This document shows, in pieces, positions 33,450 to 44,888 of a stretch of 64,000 nt of DNA. The stretch is from the NCBI RefSeq assembly GCF_002563775.1, contig NZ_PDJO01000001.1, forward strand, positions 1,188,001-1,252,000, written 5' to 3'. Numbering within the stretch: the first letter of the stretch is position 1; each line of letters opens with the position of its first letter. The position numbers and the translations under genes are program-made. Under the pieces are notes generated by a model that did not search any database, was not told the DNA's origin, and worked only from the letters and a program-made list of their open reading frames with translations. Source of the stretch: Thioclava sp. ES.031 (lineage in GTDB: Bacteria; Pseudomonadota; Alphaproteobacteria; Rhodobacterales; Rhodobacteraceae).

Positions 33450-34925
33450 ATGCTCGACGGGCGCACACGGCGTATTCTCACTCTCTGGTTTCCCCGGCTG
33501 GCGAGCGACCGGGTTCTTCGCGCGCGCCCCGTTGAGGGGCCCTTCGCGCTGGTCATGCGCGAGGGCAATACCGACCGGCTGCACTGCCTGAACGCCGCCG
33601 CCGAGGGGCAGGGGCTGGCGCGCAGCATGGCGCTGTCCGAGGCCCGCGCCTTCTGCCCCGCGCTGCAGACCGCGCCCGCCGATCCCGCCCGCGAGGCGCA
33701 ATTTCTCGAAACCCTGCGCCGCTGGGCCACGCGCTACTGCCCTTGGGTGGGGCTGGAGGACGAGGGTCTGGTGCTCGACATCACCGGCTCGGATCACCTC
33801 TGGGGCGGGGAGGAGCCGATGATGGCCGAGATGGCCGCCCGGCTGGAGCGCGCCCGGATCACCGCGCGGCTGGGCCTCGCCGATACGCGCGGCGCGGCTT
33901 GGGCGCTGGCGCATTTCGCCCCCGGCCTGGCCGCGCCCGGCGCGCGTCTCTCGGCACTGGGCAAGCTGCCGGTGGCTGCGCTGCGCCTGCCGCATGACAC
34001 GGTCACGGGGCTGCAGCGGCTGGGCCTGCGCGAGATCGGCGATCTGACCCGCACGCCGCGCGCGCCGCTCGTGCGCCGCTTCGGGGCGGGGCTGATGGCG
34101 CGGCTCGATCAGGCCTTGGGCGATCTGCCCGAACAGGTCTCGCCCGTGGCCGATCCGCCCCATTACGGCACCCGCCTGACCCTGCCCGAACCGATCGGCC
34201 AGCAGGCCGATGTGATGGCCGGGATCGAGCGGCTGCTCGACCGACTCTGCACCAAACTCAAGGAAAACGAGACCGGCGCGCGGGTGCTCTGCCTCACTCT
34301 GCGCCGCGTCGATCAGGCCAGTCAGGAGGTCGAGCTGCGCCTCGCCACCCCGCTCCGCGACCCCGCCCGGATCGCGGCCCTCTTCGCGCGTGGCATCGAG
34401 GATATCGACGCGGGCTTCGGCATCGACCAGATGCGCCTCGCCGCCACGCAGGTCGAGGCACTGCCCGCCCGCCAGATCGGCGCCATCGCCACCGAGCGGC
34501 GCGACAAGCTGGGCGATCTGATCACCCGGATCGGGCTGCGCATCGGGCTGGAGAACGTTCAGCGCTACCTGCCCGCCGACAGCCATATCCCCGAGCGCAG
34601 CTTCCTGATCGCGCCCGCCGCCTTCACCGAGCCCGAGGGCAACTGGCACCAGCCGCATCCCCGTCCGCTGCGGCTGTTCCCGCCCGAGCCGCTCATCTCT
34701 GACGCGCCCGATCCGCCGCGCCGCTTCCGCTGGCGTCGTCAGTCGCTCAGCGCGGAACGCATCGAGGGGCCGGAACGGCTGACCCCGGAATGGTGGTTCG
34801 ACGACCCGAACTGGCGGCGCGGGATGCGCGACTATTGGCGCGTCGAGACCGGGCAGGGGCTGCGGCTCTGGATGTTCCACACGCCGCAGGATCCCGGCTG
34901 GTATGTCGAGGGGGTCTTCGCATGA
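33450..34925 (+). CDS. imuB: ImuB, Y-family polymerase-like mutagenesis factor
   Basis: Protein of 491 residues with DinB/UmuC-type architecture that lacks polymerase active-site residues. Where true Y-family enzymes have the metal-binding D-x-D at the N-terminus it reads LWFPRLASDRV, and where they have SIDEA it reads LDITGSDHLW. Such ImuB proteins act as adaptors that bring DnaE2 to the beta clamp during SOS mutagenesis. The start ATG at 33450 gives the usual N-terminus RRILTLWFPR; the ribosome site is weak. It overlaps dnaE2 by 4 bases. The usual upstream partner imuA is absent here. Confidence 0.9.
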   Translation: MLDGRTRRILTLWFPRLASDRVLRARPVEGPFALVMREGNTDRLHCLNAAAEGQGLARSMALSEARAFCPALQTAPADPAREAQFLETLRRWATRYCPWVGLEDEGLVLDITGSDHLWGGEEPMMAEMAARLERARITARLGLADTRGAAWALAHFAPGLAAPGARLSALGKLPVAALRLPHDTVTGLQRLGLREIGDLTRTPRAPLVRRFGAGLMARLDQALGDLPEQVSPVADPPHYGTRLTLPEPIGQQADVMAGIERLLDRLCTKLKENETGARVLCLTLRRVDQASQEVELRLATPLRDPARIAALFARGIEDIDAGFGIDQMRLAATQVEALPARQIGAIATERRDKLGDLITRIGLRIGLENVQRYLPADSHIPERSFLIAPAAFTEPEGNWHQPHPRPLRLFPPEPLISDAPDPPRRFRWRRQSLSAERIEGPERLTPEWWFDDPNWRRGMRDYWRVETGQGLRLWMFHTPQDPGWYVEGVFA

Positions 34926-37900
34926 CCGCTCCCTTCGCCTTGGCCGAAATATCCCGGGGGGCGCCCGACGGGCGCGGGGGAAGCGCCCCCTCGACGGTCG
35001 TGACCACCGCCAACACCCCCGCCATTCCGCTCGCCTATGCCGAGCTTTGCACCACCTCCAATTTCACCTTCCTCACCGGCGCGTCCCACCCCGAGGAGCT
35101 GATGGTGCGCGCCGCCGAGCTGGGCCTCGAGGCCATCGCGATCACCGACCGCAACTCGCTCGCGGGCGTGGTGCGTGCTTTCTCCGCACTCAAGGAACTC
35201 AAGCGCGAGATCGGAGAGGCTTTGCGTATCCGCTCGGAAGTCCAGCGCGACGAAAGCTCCCGCCAGCCCATCGGATCGCCACAGGATCTGGCCCGACCCA
35301 CAACCGCGAAACTGCCGAAGCTGATCGTCGGCGCGCGGCTGGTGCTGAGCGATTGCCCGGTCGAGTGGGTGGCGCTTCCCACCGACCGCGCGGCCTATCA
35401 CCGGCTGAGCCAGCTTCTGACCCGCGGCAAGCGCCGGGCGGGGAAGGGGGAGTGTCACCTGACCCGCGCGGACCTTCTGGAGGGCTGCGCGGGGATGATC
35501 CTGATCGCCCTGCCGCCCGCCGATCTGGCCCGTGCCTACCGCCCGCTGCAGGAGATGCGGCGGCGCTTTCCGGGACAGGTCTTCCTTGGCGCGCCGCCGC
35601 GCTATGACGGCTCGGATCAGCGCTGGTTCGACGCCTGCGCGGCGCTCGCGCTCCGGGCCTCGACGCCGATGGTGGCGACTGGCGACGTGCTGATGCATCG
35701 CGGGTCGCGCCGGCAGCTGGCCGATGTGCTGACCTGCCTGCGCGAGGGCTGCACCATCGACGCGCTTGGCACCCGCGCGCTGCCCAATGCCGAGCGCCGG
35801 TTGAAGGGGCCGCAGGACATGGCGCGGCTCTACCGTCGCCACCCCGCAGCCCTGCGCCGAAGCTGCGAGATCGCGGCGCGCTGCGGTTTCGATCTCGACG
35901 AACTCAGCTACGAATATCCCGATGAGGTGGCGCAGAACGAGCCCGCGCAGGACCGGCTCGACCGGCTCGCCCGCGAGGGGCTGGCGCGGCGCTCTCCGGG
36001 GGGCATCTCGGAACGTCACGCAGGCCTGCTGGAGAAAGAGCTGCGCCTCGTCTCCGAACTGGGCTTCGCCGCCTATTTCCTCACCGTCCATGACATCGTG
36101 AGCTTCGCCCGCAGCCGCGGCATCCTGTGTCAGGGGCGCGGCTCGGCGGCCAATTCGATCATCTGCTGGGCGCTTGGCATCACCGATGTCAGCCCCGATC
36201 AGATCGGCATGGTCTTCGAGCGCTTCATCTCGAAATATCGCGGCGAGCCGCCTGATATCGACGTCGATTTCGAGCATGAGCGCCGCGAAGAAGTCATCCA
36301 GTGGATCTATGAGCGCTATGGCCGCGACCGCGCTGGGCTTTGTGCCACCGTGATCCATTTCCGCACCCGCGCCGCGATCCGCGAGGTGGGCAAGGTGATG
36401 GGGCTGAGCGCCGATGTCACGGCGAGCCTCGCGGGCCAGATCTGGGGGATTTCCGGCAAGGGGCCGGACCATGCGCGGATGGGTGAGCTGGGCCTCGACC
36501 CCACCGACCGGCGGCTGTCGCAGACGCTGAAACTGATCGGCGAGATCATCGGATTTCCGCGCCATCTCAGCCAGCATGTCGGCGGCTTCGTCATCACGAA
36601 AGGCCGCCTCGACGCGCTTTGTCCGATCGAGAATGCCGCGATGGAGGGGCGCACCTGCATCGAATGGGACAAGGACGATATCGACACGCTGGGCATCCTG
36701 AAGGTCGACGTGCTCAGCCTCGGGATGCTCACCTGTATCCGCAAGAGCTTCGACCTTCTGGCGGGTCACGAGAAGCTGGATATGTCGCTCGCCACCGTCC
36801 CGCAGGAGGACATGCCGACCTATGACATGCTGTGCCGCGCCGATGCGGTGGGGGTGTTTCAGGTGGAAAGCCGGGCGCAGATGAACTTCCTGCCGAGGAT
36901 GCGTCCACGCACTTTCTACGACCTCGTGATCGAGGTCGCCATCGTCCGTCCCGGTCCCATTCAGGGCGGCATGGTCCACCCCTATATCAACCGTCGTCAG
37001 GGGTGCGAAAAGGTAGATTTCCCCTCCAAGGAGCTGGAAGGCGTGCTGGGCAAAACCCTCGGCGTGCCGCTGTTCCAAGAACAGGCGATGCAGATCGCGG
37101 TGGTGGCTGCGGGCTTCACGCCGGAGGAGGCCGATCGCCTGCGCCGCTCGCTCGCGACGTTTCGCAAGATGGGTACGATCGGCACCTTTCGCGAGCGCTT
37201 CGTGCAAGGCATGCTGGCACGCGGCTACACGCCCGATTTCGCCGATCGCTGCTTCTCCCAGATCGAGGGGTTCGGCGAATACGGCTTCCCCGAAAGCCAC
37301 GCGGCGGCCTTTGCGCATCTCACCTATGTCTCCTCCTGGCTGAAGTGCCACCACCCTGCGATCTTCGCCTGCGCGCTGCTGAATTCGCAGCCGATGGGCT
37401 TTTACGCCCCCGCCCAGATCGTGCGCGACGTGCGGGAACACGGGGTCGAGGTGCGGCCCGTTTGCGTCAACCATTCGGGCTGGGACAGCTCGCTGGAACG
37501 CCGCGCGGACGGGGCTTTGGCGCTGCGTCTGGGCTTTCGCCAGATCAAGGGATTTCGCGAGGAGGACGCGGGCTGGATCGTCGCTGCACGGGGCAATGGC
37601 TACCCCGATCCCGAGAGCCTCTGGCTGCGCGCGGGCACGCCGCCGCATGTGCTCGAACGCCTCGCCGAGGCCGATGGGTTTGCCGGAATTGGCCTCACGC
37701 GGCGCGATGCGCTCTGGGCCGTGAAAGCGATCCGCGCCCCCGCGCCGCTACCGCTTTTCGCCGATCCGATGGACGGGGAAGGGGGGCGCGAACCGGCTGT
37801 AGAGCTGCCCGCGATGCATCTGGGAGAGGAGGTCGTGGAGGATTACGTGGCGCTCAGATTGAGCCTGCGCGCCCATCCGATGGAGCTGCTGCGCCCCTCG

Positions 37901-38335
37901 ATTTCCGGCCTCACACCGCATTGCGAACTGGTCGGCACGCGGCAAAATCGGGTCACGGTTTGCGGCCTCGTGATCACCCGCCAGCGCCCCGGAACGGCCT
38001 CCGGTGTGATCTTCATTACGCTGGAAGACGAGACCGGCGTGAGCAATGTCGTGGTCTGGCCGAAGCTCTATGAACGGTTCCGCCGGGCGGTGATGGGCGG
38101 GCGTCTTCTGCGGGTCTCGGGGCGGCTCGAACGGGAGGGGGTGGTGGTCCATCTGATCGCCGAAAAGATCGAGGATCTCTCCCCGCGACTGGCCGATCTG
38201 GGGCACCCGCTCGACGACGTTCTGGGCCTCACTACACCCCAGGCGGACGACGCCCCGCGCCCCCGTCCGCAGACCACTGCGCGCCATCCGCGCGAGCAGG
38301 CGAAACGGCTTTTCCCGAGCCGGGATTTCCATTGA
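34922..38335 (+). CDS. dnaE2: Error-prone DNA polymerase III alpha subunit DnaE2 (ImuC)
   Basis: C-family polymerase of 1137 residues that performs SOS-induced lesion bypass. It has a PHP domain beginning YAELCTTSNFTFLTGASHPEEL, a polymerase palm with the catalytic acidic pair in PPDIDVDFEHERREEVI, a tandem HhH and an OB fold near the C-terminus (VTVCGLVITRQRPGTASGVIF). The ATG at 34922 overlaps the imuB stop. From that start there are about 38 residues before the family N-terminus, encoded largely by a dispersed repeat (34931-34991); GTG at 35000 is an alternative start that would exclude the repeat. Confidence 0.93.
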   Translation: MTAPFALAEISRGAPDGRGGSAPSTVVTTANTPAIPLAYAELCTTSNFTFLTGASHPEELMVRAAELGLEAIAITDRNSLAGVVRAFSALKELKREIGEALRIRSEVQRDESSRQPIGSPQDLARPTTAKLPKLIVGARLVLSDCPVEWVALPTDRAAYHRLSQLLTRGKRRAGKGECHLTRADLLEGCAGMILIALPPADLARAYRPLQEMRRRFPGQVFLGAPPRYDGSDQRWFDACAALALRASTPMVATGDVLMHRGSRRQLADVLTCLREGCTIDALGTRALPNAERRLKGPQDMARLYRRHPAALRRSCEIAARCGFDLDELSYEYPDEVAQNEPAQDRLDRLAREGLARRSPGGISERHAGLLEKELRLVSELGFAAYFLTVHDIVSFARSRGILCQGRGSAANSIICWALGITDVSPDQIGMVFERFISKYRGEPPDIDVDFEHERREEVIQWIYERYGRDRAGLCATVIHFRTRAAIREVGKVMGLSADVTASLAGQIWGISGKGPDHARMGELGLDPTDRRLSQTLKLIGEIIGFPRHLSQHVGGFVITKGRLDALCPIENAAMEGRTCIEWDKDDIDTLGILKVDVLSLGMLTCIRKSFDLLAGHEKLDMSLATVPQEDMPTYDMLCRADAVGVFQVESRAQMNFLPRMRPRTFYDLVIEVAIVRPGPIQGGMVHPYINRRQGCEKVDFPSKELEGVLGKTLGVPLFQEQAMQIAVVAAGFTPEEADRLRRSLATFRKMGTIGTFRERFVQGMLARGYTPDFADRCFSQIEGFGEYGFPESHAAAFAHLTYVSSWLKCHHPAIFACALLNSQPMGFYAPAQIVRDVREHGVEVRPVCVNHSGWDSSLERRADGALALRLGFRQIKGFREEDAGWIVAARGNGYPDPESLWLRAGTPPHVLERLAEADGFAGIGLTRRDALWAVKAIRAPAPLPLFADPMDGEGGREPAVELPAMHLGEEVVEDYVALRLSLRAHPMELLRPSISGLTPHCELVGTRQNRVTVCGLVITRQRPGTASGVIFITLEDETGVSNVVVWPKLYERFRRAVMGGRLLRVSGRLEREGVVVHLIAEKIEDLSPRLADLGHPLDDVLGLTTPQADDAPRPRPQTTARHPREQAKRLFPSRDFH
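34931..34991. repeat. Dispersed GC-rich repeat, copy 2, inside the dnaE2 5' end
   Basis: It shares CCCTTCGCCTTGG and TATCCCGGGGG with the copy at 17930 (two mismatches in about 28 bases). It then carries its own perfect hairpin GCGCCCG-A-CGGGCGC (34961-34975) and a GGGGG/CCCCC pair. It begins 9 bases after the dnaE2 ATG and is read through in frame. Confidence 0.65.
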
Positions 38336-42818: not shown

Positions 42819-42920
42819 CGATTTTCGGGCCGATCAAGCGAAAGCAAAGCTTTTCGACCGAAAATCGAAAGGCCGAAAAAATCCAACCTTCCATTAGATG
42901 AAGTTTACACGCTAAGGTTG
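42819..42920. promoter_or_regulatory. Structured 5' region of the exopolysaccharide operon (two inverted repeats)
   Basis: The 316-base gap between the epimerase start and the HTH-less LuxR-like gene has no coding sequence. It holds a perfect 10-base inverted repeat, CGATTTTCGG (42819-42828) and CCGAAAATCG (42858-42867), whose 29-base spacer contains a further CGAAAGC/GCTTTTCG stem, and a second pair, CAACCTT (42884-42890) and AAGGTTG (42914-42920). The region is locally AT-richer than its surroundings. No consensus lux box was found. It may be operators or a folded leader RNA for the operon on the minus strand. Confidence 0.45.
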
Positions 42921-43015
42921 AGTGTGGCGTTTCGGGTTCGACTTTGCGTCTTCCCGCCTATCCCTTGATTCGACTTGGACAATCGAAGCGGGAGGGCGCG
43001 GCGGCCCGTCTTTTC

Positions 43016-43447
43016 CTAGAGGTCGGAAAGGCCTTCGGTCAGATTATGCAGCTCCCGGGTCATCTCCAGCAGCTCCTGCGCCTCGGCCTCCGAGAAGGGC
43101 TCGCCGGAGCGGGTGAAGCCCGAGATCGAGCGCGAGCCGTTCTCCAGAACCGCGCAGGTCAGACCATTCCGCAGGCCGTGGGATCTCGCCCCCTTGAGAA
43201 CCCCTTTGGGATCATCGAGATCGTCCCAGCGCACCATGCCGACATGTTGCATGCCCCACAGCACGACGGGATCGTCCATCATCATGCCCTTTTCGCTATA
43301 TTCCTCGATCCAAGGTTCGGGATATGTTCGATAAAGGATGTTCGGACGGGTAAAGCGGATGTGCAGAGCGAAGGCGAAACCGGTGTCGCAGGTTTGACCG
43401 AGCTGCTCGAGTAGGCAGGCGATTTCCTTGCGGTTTGCTGTTTCCAT
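43016..43447 (-). CDS. HTH-less LuxR homologue (autoinducer-binding domain only)
   Basis: Protein of 143 residues that covers only the acyl-homoserine-lactone-binding half of a LuxR regulator. The ligand-pocket pattern is kept: Trp and Tyr in PEPWIEEYSEKG, Asp-Pro in MMDDPVVLW and Trp in VGMVRWDDL. The protein stops after LHNLTEGLSDL and there is no helix-turn-helix; no remnant of one follows downstream in any frame I could see. It aligns with the first ~140 residues of the full LuxR encoded divergently 99 bases away. It could sequester signal or form dead dimers, as described for TrlR in Agrobacterium; that role is inferred. Confidence 0.75.
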   Translation of the reverse strand: METANRKEIACLLEQLGQTCDTGFAFALHIRFTRPNILYRTYPEPWIEEYSEKGMMMDDPVVLWGMQHVGMVRWDDLDDPKGVLKGARSHGLRNGLTCAVLENGSRSISGFTRSGEPFSEAEAQELLEMTRELHNLTEGLSDL

Positions 43448-43546
43448 CACGGGAATTCGTCTTTAGGTTGTTGGTGCAGGGCGGCAGACTCCGGCGCGAC
43501 GGTAGGCTGTGACCGCAGTGAGTGCAAGTGAATTGACCATCAGACT

Positions 43547-44149
43547 ATGGAACTGAGGGATTGTGAAACGCGATTGAATGAAATCGCCCCTGCCGGGTTT
43601 TATCTCGCGCTTAGGGTTGGATATGCATTCCCCGAAGCCGAACTCAACCGTCTGAATGACGACTGGGTCGACATGTACACCCAACAAGGTTTGGTCGTGC
43701 AGGATCCGTCGATGCACTGGATCTACCACAATGTCGGTTACGTACGTTGGTCCGACCTGAAGGACGATCCCCGCGGCGTCGTCGAGATGGCGCGGCAGAT
43801 GGGGCTGCTCTTCGGCGCCACGATCTCCTACAACACGTCAAGCGATGCTGGGCGGCGCAGTCACGCGGTCCTGTTCCGGTCGGATCGCGACTTCACCGAT
43901 GCCGAACTTCACGAAGCTTTCCAGATGCTTAAGACCTTGCATGTCGACGCCTCGCAACGCTCGCTCACGGATGCCGAACTCGAGGCGATCCGCTACCGGG
44001 CCGACGGGCTCTTGATCAAACAGATCGCCGCGAAGCTCGCAATTTCCGAGAGCGGCGTGAAAGCGCGGCTGTCTTCTGCGAGCCGAAAACTGGGCGCGCG
44101 CAACGCGATTGAGATGCTCGCGATTGCGACCTCAAGGCGATTGATCTAG
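43547..44149 (+). CDS. LuxR-family quorum-sensing transcriptional regulator
   Basis: Protein of 200 residues with an N-terminal autoinducer-binding domain (about 1-130; Trp and Tyr in LNDDWVDMYTQQG, Asp-Pro in VVQDPSMHW, VRWSDL) and a C-terminal GerE-type helix-turn-helix (about 138-200; LTDAELEAIRYRADGLLIKQIA then the recognition helix ESGVKARLSSASRKL). It is shorter than the usual ~240. No good Shine-Dalgarno precedes the ATG, which suggests weak translation or a leaderless message. It lies 73 bases before the synthase gene and divergent from the HTH-less homologue. Confidence 0.9.
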   Translation: MELRDCETRLNEIAPAGFYLALRVGYAFPEAELNRLNDDWVDMYTQQGLVVQDPSMHWIYHNVGYVRWSDLKDDPRGVVEMARQMGLLFGATISYNTSSDAGRRSHAVLFRSDRDFTDAELHEAFQMLKTLHVDASQRSLTDAELEAIRYRADGLLIKQIAAKLAISESGVKARLSSASRKLGARNAIEMLAIATSRRLI

Positions 44150-44168
44150 GCGCGCACAACCTAAAAGA

Positions 44169-44181
44169 GTGAATTTTTCAC
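44169..44181. promoter_or_regulatory. Inverted repeat GTGAA-TTT-TTCAC upstream of luxI
   Basis: A perfect 5-base inverted repeat with a 3-base spacer lies in the 73-base luxR-luxI gap, 41 bases before the synthase start. It is not a classical lux box but could be the operator of this LuxR or of another regulator. Evidence is symmetry and position only. Confidence 0.35.
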
Positions 44182-44222
44182 AATTTCGTGGTTTCGATGG
44201 AGCTATCCAGAAGGAGGCTCCA

Positions 44223-44888
44223 ATGCAGAACTGCACTTTTGAATTCTCGCAACTTCACCGCTTCGGCACCGCTTTTTACGACTTCCTGCGCCTGCGCAAG
44301 GAGGTCTTCGTCGACACGCTCGGATGGGACGTGCCGCATAATGACGAAGTGGAAATGGATCAATACGATACGCCCTTGGCGCATTACTCGCTTGTGTTGA
44401 AGGACGGGCGGGTGGTGGGCGGGGCACGGGCAATGTCCACCGCAGCGATCTGGGGGCCCAATACCTACATGCTGCGCGACGCGCATCTGGGGAAACTAGC
44501 CCATATCCCGGCGGAGATTCTGCCGACCGAAATCGCGAACGACACGGTCTGGGAATGCACGCGTCTGGTGATTTCCGATGCGCTCACCAAGCAGGCGGAG
44601 CGGGCGACCTGTCTGCGGCTCATCGTCGACGGTCTCGTTGAGCGCGCCAAGGAGCGTGGAGCGGACGAGTTGATCTGCCTCTCCTCGCTCGCCCTGATGC
44701 GCGCGCTGCGCCAGCTTGGCTACGATGTGAGCCGGATGGGTCCGGCCTATCGCAACGACGAGGACGGGCGCCAATATGCCGCGCTGCGGATGCCTGCGGA
44801 ATACTCCACCCAGCGGCGTCGCGAAATGGCCGGGGCCTACGTGCTGGCAGCCCAGTCGGCCCCGCGCCAGTTGCACACCGCCGCGTGA
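44223..44888 (+). CDS. Acyl-homoserine-lactone synthase (LuxI family)
   Basis: Enzyme of 221 residues that makes the quorum-sensing signal from S-adenosylmethionine and an acyl carrier. The invariant LuxI residues are present: Arg and Phe in RLRKEVFVDTLGW, the acidic residues in NDEVEMDQYDTP, Arg in GGARAMST, and Glu and Arg in WECTRLVI. A very strong AAGGAGG lies before the ATG at 44223. It is expressed after luxR on the same strand. Acyl chain length cannot be predicted. Confidence 0.93.
   Translation: MQNCTFEFSQLHRFGTAFYDFLRLRKEVFVDTLGWDVPHNDEVEMDQYDTPLAHYSLVLKDGRVVGGARAMSTAAIWGPNTYMLRDAHLGKLAHIPAEILPTEIANDTVWECTRLVISDALTKQAERATCLRLIVDGLVERAKERGADELICLSSLALMRALRQLGYDVSRMGPAYRNDEDGRQYAALRMPAEYSTQRRREMAGAYVLAAQSAPRQLHTAA

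Follow-up and report, generated by a model that had tools for sequence, protein, structure and literature searches.

The window analyzed here, a stretch of 64,000 nucleotides from Thioclava sp. ES.031, holds a quorum-sensing locus of three genes (Table 1). One encodes a LuxR-type protein with the signal-binding half but without the DNA-binding HTH domain (hereafter, the HTH-less protein), the second a short full-length LuxR, and the third an AHL synthase of the LuxI type. The sole Pfam match of the HTH-less protein is to PF03472 Autoind_bind (E 1e-16, 61.3 bits against a Pfam cut-off of 23 bits), and the Pfam scan returned no GerE match in its 143 residues; the LuxR matches both PF03472 (E 2.8e-9) and GerE (E 2.4e-8), and the LuxI matches PF00765 Autoind_synth (E 5.8e-16, 59 bits against a cut-off of 24). 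The start codons of the HTH-less gene and luxR lie 99 bases apart (43448-43546), with the genes divergent. Open reading frames and Pfam matches thus confirm the arrangement described in a sequence-only reading of this DNA, a LuxR-type protein consisting of the signal-binding half alone, 99 bases from luxR and divergent from it. The same reading had started luxI at GTG 44169; ATG 44223, directly 3' of AAGGAGG, is the likelier start. Eight LuxI residues that we take to be the catalytic set of AHL synthases (Arg25, Phe29, Trp35, Asp46, Asp49, Arg69, Glu111, Arg114) are conserved in 63 of 63 aligned relatives.

Table 1. Features of the quorum-sensing locus, in positions of the window
Feature	Position	Strand	Remarks
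HTH-less LuxR-type protein (CerN-like)	43016..43447	-	143 aa, signal-binding domain only, ATG at 43447
Short full-length LuxR (CerM/GtaR-like)	43547..44149	+	200 aa, PF03472 + GerE
LuxI-type AHL synthase	44223..44888	+	221 aa from ATG 44223, PF00765
16-base element upstream of the HTH-less start codon	43456..43471	-	candidate operator or promoter core

The HTH-less protein, which is 34% identical to the neighboring LuxR over 124 residues, retains the residues of the signal pocket (W46, Y50, D59, P60, W74, G95), as had been claimed for it. Its structure model (mean pLDDT 92.5) predicts a complete receptor fold; the best matches among solved structures are RhlR (8dq0, E 8.5e-8), then SdiA, QscR and TraR. 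The claim that no HTH remnant follows the domain holds for the window copy, where six residues remain after the profile match, but not for many HTH-less relatives, which keep a tail of 20-30 residues similar, on inspection by eye, to the linker and the first helix of the HTH. These tails suggest that the HTH-less proteins arose by truncation of a full LuxR. In the named records seen, the protein is annotated only as "autoinducer binding domain-containing protein".

A protein search with the window HTH-less protein as query produced matches in at least 189 of 394 Rhodobacteraceae genomes, with HTH-less and full-length proteins pooled. Using profiles built here, we scanned 86 loci (60 + 20 neighborhoods, the window, L011, L012, L013 and two Thioclava loci), a non-random set composed mostly of best matches to the window HTH-less protein, with some loci chosen from the LuxI list. 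An HTH-less gene is present in 75 of the 86 loci, a lower bound for the family since the loci come from the matches listed (two of the 75, the named Thioclava copies L014 and L015, lie outside the 394-genome sample), and absent from 11; four further candidates (L146, L147, L148, L150) enter no count. Close to the HTH-less gene there is a GerE-containing LuxR gene in all 75 loci, and the two genes are divergent in 73 (72 by script, plus L085, read directly), with the HTH-less gene coming after luxI in L120 and L121. A window-type LuxI stands behind LuxR in 63 of the 75 and a canonical LuxI further on in six; in the other six, none was seen within the stretch fetched. Among these 75 loci, the HTH-less gene thus always has luxR close by, and luxI accompanies the two in 69.

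With the window LuxI as query, 66 of the 394 genomes gave matches at or above 150 bits, 67 in all (the next match has 125 bits); one of them, in G145, carries a stop codon within the match. The HTH-less gene accompanies 61 of these 67 loci and is divergent from luxR in 59 of them, so that the arrangement, which had been thought to be rarely built into a luxI/luxR locus, is the usual layout for this LuxI type, and a rare architecture can be ruled out. Of the six LuxI loci without an HTH-less gene, G280 shows no luxR, G200, G304 and G340 are more distant loci with weak LuxR matches, and in G166 and G315 the LuxI lies near a contig end. Outside the family, a search with alignment A1 (E 1e-10) of a 385-genome class sample, in which only the best candidates per genome were scored, returned two matches, both in Rhodobacteraceae; among viral contigs, 11 stretches fit a pattern and none is a relative.

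Several loci depart from the common layout. On a plasmid of Qingshengfaniella alkalisoli (NZ_CP042264.1; L145, probably the same record as L120), luxR, luxI and the HTH-less gene run in one direction. A plasmid of Loktanella salsilacus (L146) has the HTH-less gene and luxR divergent, with no annotated luxI nearby, and genome G107 has two divergent HTH-less/LuxR pairs (L093, L150), with no LuxI within the stretches fetched. L122, L123 and L124 are distant LuxR/LuxI pairs with weak GerE matches and a LuxI 43-48% identical to that of the window; they have no HTH-less gene, and their LuxRs keep the tyrosine discussed below.

In a tree of 127 signal-binding domains, which left out four divergent full LuxRs (the CerR-like proteins of L011, L079 and L091, plus L013), 61 HTH-less proteins fall on one side of a branch (SH-aLRT 94) and 61 partner LuxRs on one side of another (SH-aLRT 99); with those four included, an earlier tree, as rooted, did not recover the HTH-less proteins as a single group. 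When 22 GtaR-type proteins were added, the partner LuxRs still stayed together (0.999), and neither the HTH-less nor the GtaR-type proteins formed one side of a branch. A single origin of the HTH-less proteins is likely on these trees. The tree of 127 domains also places the window HTH-less protein with those of L011, L079 and L091 (SH-aLRT 94). These three loci, together with L134, L136 and L137, are of the cerN-cerM-cerR-cerI type and belong to the same groups for both proteins, on the trees for the first three; from its gene order and a W57F replacement we infer that L079 is Cereibacter.

The nearest named relatives found are from Thioclava. In the two of them that were fetched (L014, L015; 90% identical), the HTH-less protein is of equal length, and dN/dS of the HTH-less gene against these two is 0.083 and 0.070. 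In the comparison with T. sediminum (L015), luxR (0.14) and luxI (0.13) have higher ratios than the HTH-less gene (0.07). The order is reversed with L046 and L047, which are more distant: there the HTH-less gene, at 0.24 and 0.37, evolves faster than luxR and luxI (0.09-0.28). By these measures the HTH-less gene is intact and settled. The sequence-only reading had already taken it for a settled gene and not recent decay, and the same-length copies, the low ratios and the old group on the tree agree with it; nor are the homologues full-length proteins beside a recently truncated window copy, given the 75 HTH-less loci. Recent decay is ruled out by the tree branch, dN/dS of 0.07-0.08 and the number of HTH-less loci.

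The two LuxR-type proteins differ at a position that contacts the ligand in LasR, whose agonists are reported, in excerpts of PMC10613653, to be hydrogen-bonded by Tyr56, Trp60, Asp73 and Ser129. In profile alignments, Tyr42 of the HTH-less protein aligns with LasR residue 56 (going by the ranges given for LasR) and with the tyrosine four residues before the tryptophan in RhlR and SdiA. At this position, Tyr is found in 71 of the 75 HTH-less proteins and Phe in four; in the 75 partner LuxRs, Leu predominates (60), followed by Phe (10), Tyr (3), Met (1) and Trp (1). In the window, the HTH-less protein carries Tyr here and its partner Leu. As a control, 21 of 21 LuxRs in 20 GtaR-type loci without an HTH-less gene in the 5-6 kb fetched have Tyr, a set biased towards likeness to the HTH-less protein, since the loci came from the search with that protein. 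The first set also has 15 further full LuxRs, of which 14 have Tyr and one (L013) could not be matched. The six CerR-like and three distant LuxRs, which were chosen in another way than the control, all have it (9 of 9). Since the partner LuxRs are one clade, the loss of Tyr represents one or a few events and not 72 independent ones.

At ten positions that separate the groups, with GtaR-type proteins as reference, the partner LuxR is changed at eight and the HTH-less protein at two. Mean identity to GtaR-type proteins differs little (37% for HTH-less proteins, 34% for partner LuxRs), and pairwise identity between HTH-less protein and LuxR is about 32%. Among the usual six pocket residues, the HTH-less proteins keep five in 75 of 75 loci and G113 in 72; the partner LuxRs keep them in most loci (W57 in 74 of 75, W85 in 69 of 75, G113 in 72). 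Because these usual residues are largely kept, the partner LuxR may bind AHL itself.

We also compared divergence across 58 loci. Tree distances of the HTH-less protein and LuxI correlate with r = 0.53 and those of LuxR and LuxI with r = 0.38, and HTH-less/LuxR distances with r of 0.51-0.60 (0.51 by tree distances), shared species history being included in all three. Once the HTH-less protein is controlled for, the partial correlation between LuxR and LuxI is 0.15 (95% bootstrap -0.09 to 0.36). The HTH-less/LuxI correlation exceeds that of LuxR/LuxI in 92% of bootstraps by tree distances and in 97% by identity distances, with overlapping intervals. LuxI divergence thus appears to track the HTH-less protein somewhat better than the LuxR, and the correlations, shared species history included, fit an HTH-less protein matched to the signal.

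The genome of the window contains seven Autoind_bind and three LuxI matches in total. At L011, a 163-aa HTH-less protein is divergent from a 200-aa LuxR, followed by a 233-aa LuxR and a LuxI, the same genes as in cerN-cerM-cerR-cerI of C. sphaeroides. Counting the window locus, there are therefore two HTH-less proteins in the genome, both with a 200-aa LuxR as divergent neighbor. This second HTH-less LuxR lies within L011:4534-7412 (about C1:823.5-826.4 kb), and cross-talk with the window pair is possible. The L012 locus comes after genes identified by eye as rpoA and rplQ and encodes a 203-aa LuxR and a GtaI-like LuxI, with which the window LuxI shares about 35% identity.

The region between the divergent genes contains a 16-base element with the consensus GCAACCTnAAAGCGAG, which could be an operator or promoter core. 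The motif scores 272, versus 92 in one shuffled set, occurs near the HTH-less start in 40 of 61 divergent regions (score 10 or more) and has no clear dyad; no copy turned up in L011, L079 and L091, which are of the cerN-cerM-cerR-cerI type. A genome-wide search with up to two mismatches gave 23 matches versus 48 for a reversed control pattern, and two exact matches, one of which is the window site. The CerM motif TNT(N5)AAGACA(N2)T is, by eye, only partly visible in the divergent region. Upstream of NAD-epimerase/glycosyltransferase genes, a block at 42908-42922 is conserved in four Thioclava loci and shares CAACCT-N-A with the element before the HTH-less gene; since the support is this shared block, a direct regulatory link to the polysaccharide genes is a guess. 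As for the proposed tuning of the polysaccharide operon, the association with these genes is local: it was seen in the Thioclava loci, whereas other neighbors are found elsewhere, which rejects the polysaccharide genes as a general partner among the loci examined. Further along the window, a 1181-aa ORF at 34790-38335 resembles, by eye, the error-prone DNA polymerase DnaE2.

A studied counterpart of the window pair is CerN/CerM of Cereibacter sphaeroides, described in 2024 (PMC11655674). According to excerpts of that paper, CerN lacks an HTH and binds CerM when AHL is present, and CerN with AHL weakens the binding of CerM to DNA, to which CerM binds without AHL; AHL alone also somewhat weakened CerM binding in vitro, and deletion of cerM restores swimming of cerN and cerI mutants. 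DNA binding without AHL has been reported there for GtaR as well.

With the gene content, the intactness, the one conserved architecture, the conserved HTH-less pocket and the loss of the LuxR tyrosine all observed at these loci, we propose that the three genes probably constitute one quorum-sensing module, in which the HTH-less/LuxR pair reads AHL and the HTH-less protein removes LuxR from DNA. LuxI would make an AHL, perhaps a long-chain one as suggested by its relative GtaI, and the short LuxR would bind DNA without AHL, as its relatives CerM and GtaR do, its targets probably including the divergent promoter. As AHL rises, the CerN-like HTH-less protein would bind it, pair with LuxR and take LuxR off the DNA. 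These steps of AHL-dependent pairing and release would carry over from CerN/CerM, and they would make the pair, and not LuxR alone, the reader of the signal. The HTH-less protein likely acts through its LuxR neighbor; given that the partner of CerN is bound to DNA in the absence of AHL and comes off when CerN and AHL are both present, we expect the HTH-less protein to execute the quorum response and not to damp it. Weighing against this reading are the pocket residues that most partner LuxRs retain, the identity of about 32% between the two proteins, the faster change of the HTH-less gene relative to L046 and L047, the six HTH-less/LuxR loci where no LuxI was seen within the stretch fetched, and the shared species history contained in the correlations. 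We put forward more tentatively, as a possibility we hold at somewhat less than even, that the receptor was split after duplication of a GtaR-like protein, the HTH-less copy keeping sensing and the fit to LuxI and the full copy becoming a largely ligand-blind DNA binder that obeys it; the receptor beside LuxI would then be the HTH-less protein and not the LuxR.

An opposite role would follow if the LuxR were an AHL-dependent activator and the HTH-less protein formed dead heterodimers with it, setting a threshold in the manner of TrlR. The domain loss is the same as in TrlR, and TrlR/TraR offers a precedent (excerpts of PMC6341043), but the window LuxR groups with CerM and resembles GtaR, two proteins whose reported DNA binding needs no AHL (excerpts of PMC11655674), and the HTH-less protein is ancient, bears no recent frameshift and has low identity to its partner; we regard such a damper as unlikely. 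The fully kept pocket and the correlated divergence of HTH-less protein and LuxI would also suit a sink or buffer that lowers free AHL without touching LuxR. What makes this quite improbable is that every one of the 75 loci examined pairs the HTH-less protein with the same type of LuxR, that its distances correlate with those of LuxR as well, and that its studied relative CerN works by contact (excerpts of PMC11655674).

With two HTH-less proteins and several short LuxRs in the genome, cross-talk is possible, and the target could be another LuxR, such as the CerM-like protein of L011, in place of the neighbor; the conserved divergent placement with its own LuxR and the correlated divergence of the two lead us to give this very little weight. 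We scarcely entertain a decaying luxR fragment: the gene has one domain fewer than most LuxR proteins, but the 75 HTH-less loci examined, the position of the HTH-less proteins on one side of a tree branch and the dN/dS of 0.07-0.08 in close relatives all speak against it.

LuxR proteins are normally read as one-protein receptors, and many luxI/luxR loci of this one family seem to add a separate sensing subunit. Should the HTH-less protein turn out to be the true receptor, the wrong protein will have been credited with signal specificity in these bacteria. The pair is also a natural case in which to test how, after gene duplication, sensing can separate from DNA binding.

Among known systems, TrlR/TraR resembles the window pair in that a LuxR-type protein without a DNA-binding domain can act on a full-length one. 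TrlR, however, is a plasmid-borne, frameshifted near-copy of TraR, 88% identical to it, that blocks an AHL-dependent activator (excerpts of PMC11655674 and PMC6341043), whereas the window protein sits in a conserved luxR-luxI locus, is about 34% identical to its neighbor and belongs to an old group; a recent frameshifted near-copy of its target it is not. Because it also groups with CerN-type proteins, TrlR/TraR antagonism, which the sequence-only reading had offered as the model, is probably the wrong one. GtaR/GtaI of Rhodobacter capsulatus (excerpts of PMC6363796 and PMC11655674) resembles the window locus in its short LuxR and in a LuxI that is broadly of the same type, and GtaR-type LuxRs share a QTYxxxW-like pocket motif with the HTH-less proteins, but the 20 GtaR-type loci fetched have no HTH-less gene.

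Roseobacter luxRI topology D, with fliG upstream in opposite orientation and adenylosuccinate lyase downstream (excerpts of PMC3824088), is matched by L088 (fliG and adenylosuccinate lyase genes named by eye). L088 has an HTH-less gene between fliG and luxR, of which the topology section of that paper makes no mention. In L088:5883-10846, a fliG-like gene, the HTH-less gene, luxR, luxI and a purB-like gene stand in a row (names by eye); 18 loci have a fliG-like cluster on the side of the HTH-less gene. Among the titles and abstract openings listed from the open literature on CerN/CerM, HTH-less or truncated LuxRs of the family, Roseobacter topologies, TrlR and heterodimers, and Thioclava quorum sensing, we found no description of the three-gene module. 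The term CerN is absent from a 2026 review of LuxR protein contacts (PMC13043044, term search in the accessible text), and a synteny analysis of C. sphaeroides, D. shibae, R. capsulatus and Ruegeria KLH11 found conservation only for gtaR (excerpts of PMC11655674).

A close likeness is to CerN/CerM, which, like the window pair, combines an HTH-less signal-binding LuxR with an adjacent short LuxR that has GerE and belongs to the GtaR-related group. The window pair differs in that a LuxI of another type, its own, follows LuxR immediately, without an intervening canonical CerR/CerI, and also in the residue replaced: W57F is reported for CerM (excerpts of PMC11655674), and the window LuxR has Leu for Tyr four residues before W57. 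The HTH-less kind is therefore already known through CerN; what looks new in the comparison of sequences is that the module, with a LuxI of its own, recurs across the family, and that residues point to a possible move of sensing to the HTH-less protein.
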